Of a stretch of 54,284 nt of DNA, positions 8,543-27,580 are shown one piece after another. Both the position numbers and the translations under genes were made by a program. This DNA comes from Bacteroidales bacterium. GTDB lineage: Bacteria; Bacteroidota; Bacteroidia; Bacteroidales; WCHB1-69. Location: the NCBI GenBank assembly GCA_017540505.1, contig JAFYAW010000036.1:1-54284 (forward strand). The letters run 5' to 3'. A model generated the notes under the pieces. It ran no database searches and was not told where the DNA came from. It saw only the letters and a list, made by a program, of their open reading frames with translations. How positions within the stretch are numbered: position 1 is the first letter of the stretch; each line of letters opens with the position of its first letter.

Positions 8543-8570
8543 GTAGAGACGCAATGCATTGCGTCTCTAC
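8543..8570. repeat. 28-bp perfect palindrome (GTAGAGACGC family)
   Basis: Arms GTAGAGACGCAATG and CATTGCGTCTCTAC are perfectly complementary with no loop. It starts 8 nt after the mmdA stop inside the mmd operon. A related element lies at 53131-53160. The layout resembles REP-type dispersed palindromes. Confidence 0.8.
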
Positions 8571-14591: not shown

Positions 14592-15512
14592 TTACCACAC
14601 GAGCTTTCCTCCGCCGTGTATGGTTACATTCCCGATGCTCGTCTTGTTGGTGAGATAGGCGGTGTCCGTTACGGTTGCTATAACATTGCCGGAACCGCTG
14701 TGTGTAATATGCGCGGTTTTGACCTTCATAAGCTGGGTGTTAGTGGTGCCGGCACCGACACTGATGAGCGTCATTTCGTTCGCATTTCCATTCAGAAACG
14801 TCATGTTGCCGGGTCCCTGGTTCCGCAATTCCGCTCTTTTCGCCGAAACATTTTGAATGTTGATGTTGCCTGACCCTGTGTTTTGTAGTACTAATTCTTC
14901 GGTTGGGTTGCTTGTCAGGTTCACCGAAACGTTGCCCGCGCCTTTGTTGTTCACAATCAATGAATTGCTGACGGAACCTGCGCTAATGTTCACATTGCCG
15001 GCACCGGAGTTATTGATGAGCAGCGTCTCTTGCCAAATGGTGCCGGAATTGTGGACAAAGATGTTGCCTGTGCCCGTGTTGTGCAACTCTAAGGATTTTT
15101 CAACCGTTAGTGATAAAATGGTGCAAACGCCTGTTCCTGAGTTGATGATTGTCAGATTCTGTTCTTTCGCTCCGGCTAATTCCACATTTCCCGTGCCGCG
15201 TATGTACAATCCCTCCAAATGTGGCAGAAGAATTTCCATCTGGATGTTTGTATTCGTTTTCGAATTGAAAGAACCGGCCATGGTAATGAACAGTTTCCCT
15301 TTAACTACTTCAATATGTGTGTTCTCTATTAGGTTGTTGTCATTGGACTTTAGGGTGATTTGATGTCTTTCGGCACTTTGTCTGATAATTACATTTCCTT
15401 TAAATGTTAAATCCACAATAGTAAAAGCATCCAAATCCGAAATGATGCGCGACTGGGCTGATAACACGGCGACCGACAGTAGGATTGCGATGGTTAATAT
15501 TGATTTTCTCAT
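14592..15512 (-). CDS. GIN-domain (DUF2807-like) secreted adhesin-like protein
   Basis: 306 aa. Signal peptide (SILTIAILLSVAVLSAQ) followed by a right-handed beta-helix built from about ten short repeats that end in G-x-G-N (RGTGNVEL, NTGTGNIFV, NSGAGNVNI, NKGAGNVSV, NTGSGNINI, NQGPGNMTF, HSGSGNVIA). This is the pattern of the putative auto-transporter adhesin head GIN domain (DUF2807). Its start lies 89 nt downstream of a sigma factor gene and no own -7 box was found, so it is probably co-transcribed with and possibly controlled by that sigma factor. Ligand and surface location unknown. Confidence 0.85.
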   Translation of the reverse strand: MRKSILTIAILLSVAVLSAQSRIISDLDAFTIVDLTFKGNVIIRQSAERHQITLKSNDNNLIENTHIEVVKGKLFITMAGSFNSKTNTNIQMEILLPHLEGLYIRGTGNVELAGAKEQNLTIINSGTGVCTILSLTVEKSLELHNTGTGNIFVHNSGTIWQETLLINNSGAGNVNISAGSVSNSLIVNNKGAGNVSVNLTSNPTEELVLQNTGSGNINIQNVSAKRAELRNQGPGNMTFLNGNANEMTLISVGAGTTNTQLMKVKTAHITHSGSGNVIATVTDTAYLTNKTSIGNVTIHGGGKLVW

Positions 15513-15601: not shown

Positions 15602-17017
15602 TTACAGTCTTACCTCTTCTCCCGTGATGCGATCGATTCTTGGAAGTTGGTCAATTCTTTTACGGGTCAATGGCACAATCTCGTTACCGGAAATGTCAAT
15701 GAAACCGTAAAAGTTGCCTTTTCGGACCAATGCTATTTTTTGACGCATATATGGACCTGTTTCTTGATATACGAAAGGTCCTATTTCCTCGTATTGCGGG
15801 TGTACCACTTCTTTACCAGACGTATCAACAAACCCTTTAAACCCGAATATCTCCACCATTGCCCAACCGGTCCTATATACGTCAAACGGCTGAATGTCAG
15901 TGTATTTCGGAGATACAACCTCATTTTTCTTTTCGTCTTGGAGACCGTAATAACCGTTGCGTTCGAATTTCTTCAGGCTATGATATGAAATCGGCACGGA
16001 CGGACGGGACTCTGTAGGCAATGGTGAAACAGATGATTCGGTTCCTTTTACTTGCTGTTCAGGATGTAAGGCTTGAGCGGATGCGCTGGGTCGCGTTCCG
16101 ATGTCGGTAGAATCAGATTCAATGAATTCTTTTTCAATAATGACGGTGTTGTCAACAGTTGTAGAATCCGTAATGATGCCTGTAGTTGATACAGGCTCGT
16201 GTGCAGTTGGAAGGGTTGACTGTTGGACGGGATGTGCTTGATATGCTATGACGGAGCCGGTTACGGCGGCGGCGACCACTCCTGTGGCAACGGTGGGGGC
16301 TTTGGCGGCGGTGATGGCCATCCAAACACCTGGTTTGGGTGCTGTGGCCCAATTGAGCGAGGACAATGGCGATGGCGTGTCGGGCGACAACGTCAGATGT
16401 TGCAGCTTTGCACGACACAACCGGTCCATGGCGTGCGATTTCCACGGAAGGATTGGAAGCAATATCATAAGGCCTTTCTTTTTCTGATGAACCATATCTT
16501 TCAATGTGTTTTGCAACTGTGTCCGAGCCTCCGACAGGTATCGCTTTGAACTGCGAACGCCAATCTGCATCATTTCGGATATTTTAGTATGTGTTTTGTT
16601 TTCAAAAACATACAGGTTGAATACTGTCCGTTGGCGTTCGGGTAGGGCACATACGGCATCCAGAATCTCCGATTCGGAAAGGTTGTTGAGCTGATACGTG
16701 AAATCCGATGTATCCTCAATAACCGCATCGGTTTGCTCAGACGCGACGAAAGTTGTCCCGACATCGGACTCTTCCACAGACAGGAATTGCGGCTGTCGGC
16801 GCAGGTAGTCGAGTGTGGTGTTGAGGTTGATGCGCATTAGCCACCCGTCAAAACTGCCAATACGACGGTAGCTTTCCGACTTTTCAATGGCCTTCAGGAA
16901 TGCTTCATGCGCAAGGTCTTCAGCCACAACCCGGTTTCCCACGTAGCGGTAGCATGTCCCGATCATCTTCCCGATGTTCCGTTGATACGCCTTCGTCCAA
17001 AACTGTTTTGCCTGCAT
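15602..17017 (-). CDS. ECF sigma factor fused to membrane segment and WG-repeat domain
   Basis: 471 aa, more than twice the usual 170-200 aa of an ECF sigma factor. Residues about 10-75 are sigma region 2 (VAEDLAHEAFLKAIEKSE, FDGWLMRINLNTTLDYLRR); about 115-170 are region 4 (ALPERQRTVFNLYVFEN, KISEMMQIGVRSSKRYLSEA). An Ala/Val-rich segment at 238-258 may cross the membrane. A Ser/Thr/Pro-rich linker (260-345) leads to three WG-type repeats (350-471: NGYYGLQDEKK, FGFKGFVDTSGKEVV, GNFYGFIDISGNEIVP). ATG at 17017 was chosen because the upstream TTG lies in a -7 box. The GIN-domain gene follows. No separate anti-sigma gene is present. Confidence 0.85.
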   Translation of the reverse strand: MQAKQFWTKAYQRNIGKMIGTCYRYVGNRVVAEDLAHEAFLKAIEKSESYRRIGSFDGWLMRINLNTTLDYLRRQPQFLSVEESDVGTTFVASEQTDAVIEDTSDFTYQLNNLSESEILDAVCALPERQRTVFNLYVFENKTHTKISEMMQIGVRSSKRYLSEARTQLQNTLKDMVHQKKKGLMILLPILPWKSHAMDRLCRAKLQHLTLSPDTPSPLSSLNWATAPKPGVWMAITAAKAPTVATGVVAAAVTGSVIAYQAHPVQQSTLPTAHEPVSTTGIITDSTTVDNTVIIEKEFIESDSTDIGTRPSASAQALHPEQQVKGTESSVSPLPTESRPSVPISYHSLKKFERNGYYGLQDEKKNEVVSPKYTDIQPFDVYRTGWAMVEIFGFKGFVDTSGKEVVHPQYEEIGPFVYQETGPYMRQKIALVRKGNFYGFIDISGNEIVPLTRKRIDQLPRIDRITGEEVRL

Positions 17018-17041
17018 CTCTGCTGTTTTATAATGATGACG

Positions 17042-17049
17042 CAAAGATA
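17042..17049 (-). promoter_or_regulatory. -7 box TATCTTTG for the sigma factor / GIN unit
   Basis: Exact TAnnTTTG on the minus strand, 24 nt upstream of the ATG at 17017. Its TTG would otherwise be read as an upstream start codon, so it decides the start. Confidence 0.6.
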
Positions 17050-17084
17050 TAAAAAGGGGCCAAGGTGCGGGGAAGGGGAAGGAG

Positions 17085-17124
17085 TTAAGAAGTTAAGAAG
17101 TTAAGAAGTTAAGGAACTAAGAAG
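17085..17124. repeat. TTAAGAAG octamer array (5 units) overlapping the folC stop
   Basis: Units TTAAGAAG x3, TTAAGGAA, CTAAGAAG. The last unit contains the complement of the folC stop codon (17117-17119), so the folC 3' end lies inside the array. Confidence 0.8.
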
Positions 17125-18403
17125 TTCGAAGATGTGATAGTAGTTCGCCTACTACGAAGCAGCTGCCGCCGATGAAGATAAGGTCGTCGGGTGCGGCATC
17201 ACTGTTGGCTTTCCGGAAGGCCTCATATACATCGGGAATGGTGGTGCACGACAATCCGAGCGCTGTCAGGCGAGTGGTTAAATCCTTTGCAGCTATGGCA
17301 CGGTTGGTGGGTGCCTGACAGATGTAATATTTGGCTTTTTGGGGCAATAGTGGTAGGATATGGTCAAGGTCCTTGTCGGCGGCCATGCCGAAGACCATGC
17401 GCAGTTGCCGGCAGGGCATGTCGGCCAATTGCTTCATGGTGAGGGTCAACCCGCCGAGATTGTGTCCCACATCGCAGATAGTGAGCGGCTCGCGGCGCAG
17501 CACCTGCCAGCGTCCGCAGATGCCGGTGTTGGAAGCCACCCGCTCGATGGCCGGCACGGTGATGTCCTTGTCGTAAGGCATGATTTGCTGGAGCAGCTCC
17601 GCCACTTGCAGGAAGGTGACGAGGTTCTTGCGTTGGTACTCGCCTTCAAGGGGCGTATGCACGTGCTCGTATAGGGTATTGCCTTCCACATCGAGGATTT
17701 TGCAGTCGGACAGGTTGCCTTCCACGGTGAAATTATTTTCCGCGAGGAAGAGCGGGGCGTTCTTCTGGTTGGCAATGTCGGTGAAGACGGGATAGCTCTC
17801 CGGATGGAACTCGCCCACGACCACGGGGGTGTCCTGTTTGATGATGCCGGCCTTTTCGAAGGCGATTTTGGCGATGGTGTCGCCCAACAGGTTGGTGTGT
17901 TCCAGCGTGATGTTGGTGATGACGGAGAGGATGGGGGAGAGCACGTTGGTGGCGTCGAGCCGTCCGCCGAGGCCCACTTCCACCACGGCGATGTCCACGT
18001 GTTTCTCGGCGAAATACCAGAACGCAAGTGCGGTGGTCATCTCAAAGAAGGAGGGCTCGAGTTTGTTGAAGGAGGGTTTGAATTTCTGGAAGAATTCGAG
18101 CACCTTTTCTTCGGAGATCATCATCCCGTTGATACGGATGCGTTCGCGGAAGTCCACCAAATGTGGGGAGGTGAAGAGGCCGGTCTTCAGTCCGCGTTCC
18201 TGGCAGTAGGAGGCGGTGAGATGGGCCACGGAGCCTTTGCCGTTGGTGCCGGCGATGTGGACGGCCTTGAGTCTCTTTTCGGGATTGCCTACGATTTGCA
18301 GTAGGGCTTCGATGTTCTCGAGGCCCTCTTTATACGCCGCCGACCCGATTTTGTGGTACATGGGGTAGGCGTGGAATATTTCTTCGAGGAGGGAGTTGTA
18401 CAT
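17117..18403 (-). CDS. folC: Dihydrofolate synthase / folylpolyglutamate synthase
   Basis: 428 aa. Mur-ligase-like enzyme that adds glutamate to dihydropteroate and to folates. The P-loop GTNGKGSVAH (residues 52-61) and the folate/Mg region SPHLVDFRERIRING are intact; the central domain has VEVGLGGRLDATNV and TNITLEHTNLLGDT, and the C-terminal ligase domain has ICDVGHNLGG. ATG at 18403 was preferred to a TTG three codons upstream that lies at the edge of the nonamer repeat. Length is normal. Confidence 0.95.
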   Translation of the reverse strand: MYNSLLEEIFHAYPMYHKIGSAAYKEGLENIEALLQIVGNPEKRLKAVHIAGTNGKGSVAHLTASYCQERGLKTGLFTSPHLVDFRERIRINGMMISEEKVLEFFQKFKPSFNKLEPSFFEMTTALAFWYFAEKHVDIAVVEVGLGGRLDATNVLSPILSVITNITLEHTNLLGDTIAKIAFEKAGIIKQDTPVVVGEFHPESYPVFTDIANQKNAPLFLAENNFTVEGNLSDCKILDVEGNTLYEHVHTPLEGEYQRKNLVTFLQVAELLQQIMPYDKDITVPAIERVASNTGICGRWQVLRREPLTICDVGHNLGGLTLTMKQLADMPCRQLRMVFGMAADKDLDHILPLLPQKAKYYICQAPTNRAIAAKDLTTRLTALGLSCTTIPDVYEAFRKANSDAAPDDLIFIGGSCFVVGELLSHLRTS

Positions 18404-18407
18404 GATA

Positions 18408-18434
18408 CGCAAAGGACGCGAAGGAGCGCAAAGG
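18408..18434. repeat. Left nonamer array beside the GxxExxY gene (CGCAAAGGA type)
   Basis: Three units of about 9 nt: CGCAAAGG, ACGCGAAGG, AGCGCAAAGG. It begins 4 nt from the folC ATG and is the inverted counterpart of the array at 18918-18954. Confidence 0.7.
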
Positions 18435-18958: not shown

Positions 18959-19654
18959 TTAATGGAATAAAATTATTCTTAATTCCTCTTTCCCGGGTTT
19001 GTAGTGAGCCCGTTTTGCTTCCTGAACGCATTGCTGCTGTATGAGGCGGTTGGTAATGGTAGTTTTGTTTTTCGAAGTATTCACCACGCGGGCCTCGCTA
19101 ACGGTACCGTCTGCCATCACATGAACCTCCACACTTACTTGTCCCTCTTCAGAAACAGTTGTATTAATGACGTTTGTCATCCCTCTGCTGCCCGTGCCGT
19201 AGCCGATGCCGCCGCCGGAGCCGCCACCTTCACCGGGACCGAGGCCGGAGCCTGTGCCCGTGCCGATGCCGGACCCTTGGCCGCCACCGCTGCCACTACC
19301 GCCCTTGCCGCCCTTGAAGATGGCGGACTGGTCCACTTTAGGTTGTGCGGGAGTCGGGGTGGTGGATTTCTGGGTGGAGTGTGCCACGGAGGGCGCGTCC
19401 TGTGCGTTCTGGGTGGCGTAGTTGGGTGCCGAAGGTTGGCGGGAATGGGTGGGCGAGGGAGCGTCCATGCCACCGCCGCCGCCACCACCCGTCGGAGCTT
19501 CCAGTTCTACGTAGAAGGTCTTCTTGGGCGGTGGAGGTGGAATCTGGGACTTCAGGCCGAAGGCAAGCAGCAGCACGATGATGAGTGCCATTGTGCCGAC
19601 CGTCGTTCCCCAGGATACGATAGTGTCTTTTCTATTCTCGTTCGATTCTCTCAT
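18959..19654 (-). CDS. TonB-family energy transducer
   Basis: 231 aa. One N-terminal membrane helix (about 15-35), then a Pro run (IPPPPPKKTFYVELEAP), a long periplasmic linker with a poly-Gly stretch and repeated G-S/T-G segments (about 115-155), and a TonB C-terminal-like domain (SVEVHVMADGTVSEARVVNTSKN, then AKRAHYKPGKEE). It couples the proton-motive force harvested by ExbB/ExbD to outer-membrane transporters. The start overlaps the exbD stop by 4 nt (ATGA). The C-terminal domain is short compared with classical TonB, so a TolA-like role is an alternative. Confidence 0.82.
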   Translation of the reverse strand: MRESNENRKDTIVSWGTTVGTMALIIVLLLAFGLKSQIPPPPPKKTFYVELEAPTGGGGGGGMDAPSPTHSRQPSAPNYATQNAQDAPSVAHSTQKSTTPTPAQPKVDQSAIFKGGKGGSGSGGGQGSGIGTGTGSGLGPGEGGGSGGGIGYGTGSRGMTNVINTTVSEEGQVSVEVHVMADGTVSEARVVNTSKNKTTITNRLIQQQCVQEAKRAHYKPGKEELRIILFH

Positions 19655-26890: not shown

Positions 26891-27580
26891 TTATTGTCCC
26901 GACATCGTGTTGATACGTCGGGCGGCGACTTTCCATACGAAGATGAAGAAGATGTAGAAAACGATGTTCAGCAGGGCGGCTACGGCGGTGTTGGTCTCCT
27001 GGATGAGGTTGTTGTACATCAGGATGAAATCGTAGATGCCGTGCAGGATGACCGGGCAGATGTATGCCAGCACCAAATAAGTGCTCTTCTTCCAGGGTCT
27101 GAATTTGGCGAAGGCGAAGAAATAGCCCATGATGATGGCGAAGAAGAAATGGGCGGGTACGGCGAACAGCGCGCGCCCCACCGCCACCGAAATTCCCCCT
27201 TCCAGAACATACATGAGATTCTCCAATCCGGCAAATCCAAGGCCCACGCAGGCTGCATATTCGAGGCCGTCATAGTATTCGTCGAAATAGCGGCTTTTCC
27301 AGACAAACAGATAGAGGAAGAAGAGCTTGCAGAACTCCTCGGGCATGGCCGCCTGGTAGAATGCCTGGTACAAAGCATTTTGAAGCTCGTTAGAAAAGGT
27401 TGTGATTCCCGCGAACCGGAAAGTCGTAAGGAGGATGATGTCTAAAATGCCGGCCAGCACGCCGCCCAACAGGGCTTTCAGCAGCATGGGTAACGGTTCT
27501 TTCTGGTATTTGTCTTTTCGATAGATATATACCAGAAGAACGATGACGGGCAGCAGGGAGGCAGCAAGAATTATTAGCAT
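26891..27580 (-). CDS. PrsW-family intramembrane metalloprotease
   Basis: 229 aa, seven to eight membrane helices. Key family features: AAMPEEFCK (Glu81-Glu82), GLGFAGLENLMY (about 113-124) and two membrane His residues (PAHFFF near 144 and LHGIYD near 180), expected to bind the metal. In Bacillus PrsW makes the first cut of the anti-sigma factor RsiW. Here there is no adjacent anti-sigma gene, but the window holds a sigma factor with a possible membrane segment (15602-17017); any link is conjecture. Confidence 0.88.
   Translation of the reverse strand: MLIILAASLLPVIVLLVYIYRKDKYQKEPLPMLLKALLGGVLAGILDIILLTTFRFAGITTFSNELQNALYQAFYQAAMPEEFCKLFFLYLFVWKSRYFDEYYDGLEYAACVGLGFAGLENLMYVLEGGISVAVGRALFAVPAHFFFAIIMGYFFAFAKFRPWKKSTYLVLAYICPVILHGIYDFILMYNNLIQETNTAVAALLNIVFYIFFIFVWKVAARRINTMSGQ

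Follow-up and report, generated by a model that had tools for sequence, protein, structure and literature searches.

A conserved sigma/anti-sigma fusion with WG repeats, probably tethered to the membrane and encoded beside a secreted GIN-domain protein in Bacteroidales

The window analysed here (the whole stretch of 54,284 nucleotides) encodes a conserved, real fusion of an ECF sigma factor with an anti-sigma-like segment and a presumed WG-repeat sensor, and in the genus loci that we scanned this gene has a constant GIN neighbour. Its domain order, its conservation and its linkage are read directly from the genomes. We favour, with a probability of roughly 0.6, a protein that would be tethered to the membrane, freed by proteolysis and self-activating. 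The features of the locus are as follows:

15602..17017, minus strand: fused sigma / anti-sigma-like / transmembrane / WG gene, 471 aa, a single open frame as in 13/13 related loci
16793..16987, minus strand: sigma region 2 (aa 11-75), Pfam Sigma70_r2, E 3.1e-14
16514..16669, minus strand: sigma region 4 (aa 117-168), Pfam Sigma70_r4_2, E 4.6e-11
16466..16471, minus strand: CTT-ATG at the junction (Leu183-Met184), constrained at the nucleotide level
16307..16468, minus strand: anti-sigma-like segment (aa 184-237), from comparisons of the tails with a separate membrane protein
16244..16300, minus strand: putative transmembrane stretch (aa 240-258), uncharged, Kyte-Doolittle 1.63 over 19 aa, which is marginal
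15986..16240, minus strand: Ser/Thr/Pro-rich linker (aa 260-344), variable, with an apparent decayed palindromic repeat at aa 306
15605..15985, minus strand: three WG repeats and C-terminus (aa 345-471), Pfam WG_beta_rep, E 7.3e-16
14592..15512, minus strand: gene of a secreted GIN/DUF2807 (Toastrack-type) protein, 89 nt downstream of the sigma gene, PF10988, signal-peptide-like start by eye
17038..17063, minus strand: ECF-type promoter TTGGCCC-N15-CGTC of the sigma gene, 0 mismatches

The gene begins with an ATG at 17017 and ends with a stop at 15602; upstream of it lies a Mur-ligase gene (17117-18412, minus strand; folC-like by eye). The coordinates, the domain order and the three repeats given in an earlier note on this DNA agree with Pfam and with our reading, and the strand, which it left unstated, is minus. 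A single WG stretch passes the WG_beta_rep cut-off alone, the three repeats being counted by eye from residue 345, and among solved structures the best match of the WG region reached only E 0.42. The protein qualifies as an ECF sigma-70 factor, with 53 bits for Sigma70_r2 (cut-off 24) and 42.6 bits for Sigma70_r4_2 (cut-off 25.7), and it scores under the curated cut-offs of two Bacteroidota sigma subfamilies, TIGR02985 (81.9; cut-off 126.4) and NF058625 (62.2; cut-off 130). In the open-access literature on sigma factors with WG repeats, we found no related description.

A scan of genome contigs returned 13 related loci, titled Bacteroidales or Bacteroidetes and several of them from ruminant samples, whose best segments are 63-67% identical; they encode 12 different proteins, since those of L004 and L013 are identical. 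Because all 13 loci carry a complete single frame, we regard the continuous frame claimed in the earlier note as biological, and the same domain order, sought in other genomes, was found fused in all 13 loci and in two genomes of another family. At least one copy of a gene with the window-type tail is present in 36 of the 40 genomes of the window's genus; across an order-wide sample this tail was found in 4/295 genomes, three of them within the genus. When a short-tail member from G229 was used as query, 10/295 order genomes matched at E 1e-40, a count to which unfused sigma genes contribute. By reading, fused forms outside the genus occur in five genomes (G082, G186, G220, G229 and G270), and two of these belong to another Bacteroidales family and carry WG stretches:

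L194, 601-2910, plus strand: sigma-transmembrane protein with ten WG stretches, 769 aa, G186
L195, 1866-4169, minus strand: sigma-transmembrane protein with ten WG stretches, 767 aa, G082

The G186 protein aligns end to end with the window protein at 27% identity (E 2e-57); beside its gene lies a putative esterase gene in place of GIN, which we count against our explanation. In the tree, a single clade (100/99) unites the WG types apart from one N-masked row. In the same tree, L054 is a WG row under another label, and five rows marked unfused (L031, L034, L036, L037 and L039) are genes that a locus end truncates. L013, as a duplicate, and L098, which is the window gene with a late start, are dropped or mislabelled rows, and loci L029-L041 repeat the genomes of L001-L012.

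Fifty-four residues separate the sigma part from the transmembrane stretch in the window protein. In G120 (C58), a sister genome of the genus, a sigma factor of 173 aa stops and, three bases on, a protein of 432 aa (L196) starts, with the layout segment, helix, long linker. The C-terminal part of this protein is related to a partner protein, L199 (E 2e-18); both are without a Pfam barrel match, so that the label "barrel" rests on other partners. The fused L091 protein resembles the separate one at E 2e-8, a similarity that includes the low-complexity linker. By hhalign, a profile built from four short-tail tails and the separate G120 protein (A7) matched a profile of four WG and two short-tail tails (A2) at 97.2% and E 3.8e-11, and the separate protein alone matched A2 weakly (52.6% over 21 columns). 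The tree pairs the fused L091 with the split L141 as sisters at 100/99. Since the tails are related to the start of the separate G120 membrane protein, residues 184-258 appear to be a fused anti-sigma segment with its helix, and the gene is best read as a sigma/anti-sigma fusion. The earlier idea that the outer sensor simply replaces an anti-sigma protein has to be modified, as these residues are themselves related to such a separate protein. L199 (1029-2777, minus strand; about aa 105-133) and L196 (2219-3517, minus strand) also share an internal signal-peptide-like segment (MDSIK..GLA..APAQ), which stands before the C-terminal part.

The membrane segment had been placed at 238-258, which corresponds to the hydrophobic stretch 240-258. 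In an alignment of 60 family members, no other run of columns in which charged residues stay at or below 2% is as long as 242-259. Hydropathy at this stretch is 1.48-2.04 in WG rows, 1.51 to 2.28 in short-tail rows and 3.26 in L072; the best window of one short-tail row, L095, falls elsewhere (176). We observed that the 20 residues ahead of the helix are net positive in 26/27 WG rows and the 20 following are net negative in 25/27 (L098 left out of the count), and a clearer helix stands at the homologous place in some paralogues and in L197. The WG repeats by themselves are uninformative on location. Taken together, the hydropathy, the charge-free run, the charge bias and a TonB_C-like domain in L072 favour a C-terminus facing out. 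From these sequence features the fused sigma factor is probably membrane-tethered with an outward sensor, as had been proposed: the higher hydropathy at the homologous position in many paralogues, the charge bias, the GIN gene in 27/27 loci and the TonB-like domain speak for this, and the marginal helix against it.

The secreted GIN-domain protein announced next door is confirmed, and PF10988 is found in the next gene on the strand in all 27 WG-type genus loci scanned. Four WG-type genes fall outside these scans: L013, L054 (G296, cut by N), L162 (G315) and the truncated gene of G330. In L004 the GIN gene is split into two frames, of which the first part was scanned, and the partner genes of L005, L038, L043 and L055 are cut by locus ends. 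The GIN protein may be a target of the fused sigma factor. We also considered an ancestral sigma/anti-sigma/GIN operon. For this purpose, 30 order-level GIN loci (L100-L129) were read by eye with flanks of about 1.5 kb, and L096 and L097 from the own genome were inspected too; only L111 and L129 of the 30 carry an anti-sigma-like gene beside GIN and only L129 has a sigma end as well, so that no clear precursor was seen.

Short-tail paralogues, such as L015 and L016 in the own genome, are without WG, and the gene after them codes, in most cases, for a protein whose start resembles a signal peptide. Among 31 of these partners scanned at E 0.05, OMP_b-brl_2 was matched by 16 and OMP_b-brl by 15, the overlap being uncounted. 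A DTVYV-like motif occurs both at the end of the sigma tail and at the partner's N-terminus in 26/38 short-tail pairs; it is present in the partner in 37/38, missing from the tail in 11/38 and missing from both in one (L072). Neither member of the 28 WG pairs (26 genus, 2 other family) carries it. Another sigma-transmembrane member of this family, L072 (2420-3760, minus strand), closes with a TonB_C-like domain, which scores 17.8 bits (cut-off 24.6; E 0.0047). This C-terminus resembles the window's own TonB-like ORF at 18959-19654. Outside the order, L201 (1486, plus strand) and L202 (1483, minus strand) each show a sigma-transmembrane-tail gene and a partner with a DTIYV motif common to both, and this two-gene layout is possibly class-wide. 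In the own genome, proteins with a CHU_C type IX secretion signal domain (L019, 1998-2918, plus strand; L020, 561-1484, minus strand) are encoded beside unfused sigma genes.

Upstream of the WG sigma genes the sequence reads TTGGCCCYTTTTYRTAYYTTTGCGTC. With up to three mismatches, this promoter is the sole match of the motif in the own genome (G000), and 100 shuffles of the window gave none; the 40 genus genomes gave 57 matches in 33 genomes, and none to the reversed motif used as control. All 23 exact matches in the 40 genomes lie ahead of a WG sigma gene (22 placed by coordinates, and one by reading, at the truncated gene of G330). The other 34, with one to three mismatches, include six before WG sigma genes, five at short-tail sigma genes and 13 at two candidate targets. 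The latter (L163-L175) are a protein of 818-823 aa (six genomes) and one of 424 aa (seven genomes, the contig ending within the gene in two of them); both have signal-peptide-like starts and are candidate regulon members.

The -35 element is TGGC(C/A)C in the 24/24 WG rows printed. L006, L038, L042 and L052 are outside this listing; the motif was seen for L006, and the L042 and L052 genes show it as L089 and L084. A sister clade has TTTGCCC with GCATC in 8/8, several other subtypes have GTAAC or GTTAC, and the region 4 recognition helix varies with the -35 element (RSSKRYL, RTSK.. and NSK.. in WG and two other subtypes). By eye, no such -35 element was seen in the ten rows of the L016/L060 short-tail clade; for some rows of the family the motif lies outside the stretch covered. 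The spacing of -35, N15 and CGTC is that of ECF promoters; TAnnTTTG in the same promoter, which also fits a housekeeping -7 box, counts against our explanation. One ECF-type promoter is common to the WG genes, and several other subtypes carry one of their own; this speaks for self-activation, which would fit part of the family.

A PrsW-type protease had been noted 10 kb away. Its gene (26891-27580, minus strand; E 2.3e-36) indeed lies about 9.9 kb from the WG sigma gene, and the genome, 91% complete, shows a single PrsW gene and a single M50 gene (RseP-type). PrsW is found in 36/40 genus genomes, three of which have no sigma-transmembrane match (G001, G316 and G325), and in the 25/25 relatives with both genes it is on another contig than the WG sigma gene, in assemblies fragmented enough for the two to be near each other. 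PrsW as a linked partner is therefore not supported: it is present nearby in the window, but it does not look like a dedicated protease.

In the mechanism that we propose, a Dma-like anti-sigma segment fused to the ECF sigma factor, together with a single transmembrane helix, would tether it to the inner membrane; a linker, probably disordered, and then the WG-repeat domain as sensor would lie on the periplasmic side. At rest, the tether and segment 184-237 would hold sigma off RNA polymerase. An envelope signal, probably passed on by the adjacent GIN/Toastrack protein, would change or free the WG domain. As with IutY, a site-1 cleavage in the linker and a site-2 cleavage in the Ala/Gly/Thr/Val-rich helix could follow, the RseP-type M50 protease or PrsW releasing the sigma half. 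The freed sigma would then read TTGGCCC-N15-CGTC at its own promoter, and this self-activation would raise sigma and, by read-through, GIN.

The junction of the sigma part with the anti-sigma-like segment suggests that the gene may yield two products. Met184 is kept in 56/60 aligned proteins and stands one codon later in three of the remaining four. The codon of Leu183 is CTT in 41/41 genes, in which CTT makes up 11.7% of Leu codons, and in 14/14 among 27 representatives under 80% identity; no other of the 255 columns stands out as far in codon conservation, its z being 11.0 against a mean of 1.3 and sd of 2.0 over all columns, shared descent included. The 18 bases before Met184 have an A+T of 0.66, equal to that before real sigma starts (0.66; 24 each) and higher than that before 174 other internal Met sites (0.46). 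An internal start at Met184 is the simplest reading of this constraint, recoding being another. Translation starting there too would give the fused sigma and a sigma-less anti-sigma/transmembrane/WG protein, their ratio setting the threshold. We regard this as possible but tentative, as real starts do not show CTT directly ahead of ATG, four other-family tails were aligned without Met at the junction, and a Lys-rich protein sequence by itself yields A-richness. The two-product reading and the tethered sigma can hold together. Equally speculative is its wider form, with the A-rich CTT-ATG signal producing two proteins whose outer part evolution may have exchanged (WG with GIN, short DTVYV tail with a barrel-like gene, TonB-like domain), promoter specificity diverging alongside. 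In a bolder form, recoding at CTT-ATG would free sigma without proteolysis: a +1 slip at CTT brings TGA next wherever the base after ATG is A, as in 18/24 representatives, a retention that follows largely from Met-Ile and so is not independent evidence. Slippage on poly-A is not favoured, since the A-run at Lys179-Lys180 has at most about six bases and other bases break it in several rows; AAA-AAA is there because Lys-Lys is encoded.

The other alternatives concern the membrane and the frame itself. The hydrophobic stretch might not be inserted, the WG part being a cytosolic protein-interaction domain like the TPR/WD40 extensions of ECF42/ECF57; its marginal hydropathy would allow this and WG repeats occur in cytosolic proteins too, but the secreted partner in 27/27 loci, the more evident helices that some paralogues and L197 have there, and the TonB-like domain of L072 make it improbable. 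Somewhat easier to accept, though still unlikely, is a sigma factor that stays tethered and uncleaved, acting membrane-bound or unmasked when the WG domain passes a conformational change on through the helix, in the way suggested for extended sigma factors such as ECF41/ECF42. According to a review, 15 of at least 26 sigma groups with extensions are still to be studied (PMC8999054), which leaves room for such a mode; against it, the anti-sigma-like segment and single helix match the IutY/Dma plan, and proteolytic release of IutY has been demonstrated (PMC5411451). The split sigma/transmembrane pair of G120 might recall an assembly or frame artefact joining two genes, yet the fused frame in 13/13 relatives and in two genomes of another family leads us to reject this, and we give it almost no credence.

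A palindromic element, GTAGAGACG-N10-CGTCTCTAC, is inserted in frame into the two variable linkers that the sigma gene encodes, in all of the six relatives whose DNA was read (L002, L003, L004, L006, L008 and L011; for example at aa 98, 302 and 318 of L006), where it encodes VETxxxxSL peptides, some copies being imperfect; copies at aa 86 and 306 of the window protein look decayed. With perfect arms, we counted 45 copies in L001-L013 (131.6 kb), all 45 with N10, and one in the window at 8543. In G330 (L204, 625-1026, plus strand), the WG sigma gene is truncated just past the VETCHGASL peptide of such an element and runs into a neighbour resembling mutS.

Since the relatives keep the same build beside a secreted-protein gene, a single tethered switch could read cell-envelope signals. 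Sigma/anti-sigma fusions known so far are few, and the family sets beside them a natural series of split, fused and sensor-swapped forms; for the GIN/Toastrack proteins of Bacteroidales it proposes a signalling partner that can be tested. How sigma specificity diverges can be studied on these closely related sigma factors, whose -35 elements differ, and the constrained junction codon poses a concrete, directly testable question, one product or two.

Fused sigma factors are already known (IutY, ECF48/52/53 and Dma3), and the version with WG and GIN is an added variant. A FecR-like periplasmic anti-sigma domain defines the IutY-type CSS sigma/anti-sigma hybrids; in the window protein Pfam found no FecR-like domain at E 0.001, only WG, and next door there is no outer-membrane receptor gene, GIN being there in the 27/27 loci scanned. 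In Pseudomonas putida, IutY (ECF243), which Prc and RseP release, likewise unites a sigma factor, a helix and a periplasmic part in a single chain (PMC5411451, PMC8999054), the helix and outward side of the window protein being predicted from sequence. It differs by its own type of periplasmic anti-sigma domain and its outer-membrane siderophore receptor partner, in place of which the window has WG and GIN (PMC5411451). ECF48, ECF52 and ECF53 of Actinobacteria (SCO4117) share a C-terminal helix and an extracytoplasmic sensor domain on sigma, but they belong to another phylum and have a zinc-finger anti-sigma domain, with a carbohydrate-binding domain in SCO4117 (PMC8999054); the window protein gave no Pfam match to a zinc-finger anti-sigma domain at E 0.001. 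DUF4097 and GIN/DUF2807 have been brought together under the name Toastrack, a domain that occurs in the Lia/PSP systems of envelope stress, and the window's neighbour gene is PF10988 too; in those systems the domain is often coupled to PspC or LiaI-LiaF-TM, whereas here it adjoins the putatively tethered sigma (PMC11237479). A further close plan is that of the Dma anti-sigma factors, described as an N-terminal anti-sigma domain, one helix, a long disordered tether and a C-terminal beta-barrel, with a separate ECF21 sigma gene next door, a layout which the split 432-aa G120 protein resembles (PMC13088901). The window protein, also from Bacteroidota, has a putative anti-sigma segment, a putative single helix and a long, variable Ser/Thr/Pro-rich linker in the corresponding places, a likeness by published description only; unlike Dma, it has sigma within the same protein, as reported for the N-terminus of Dma3, and it carries WG repeats instead of the barrel, with GIN as its neighbour (PMC13088901).
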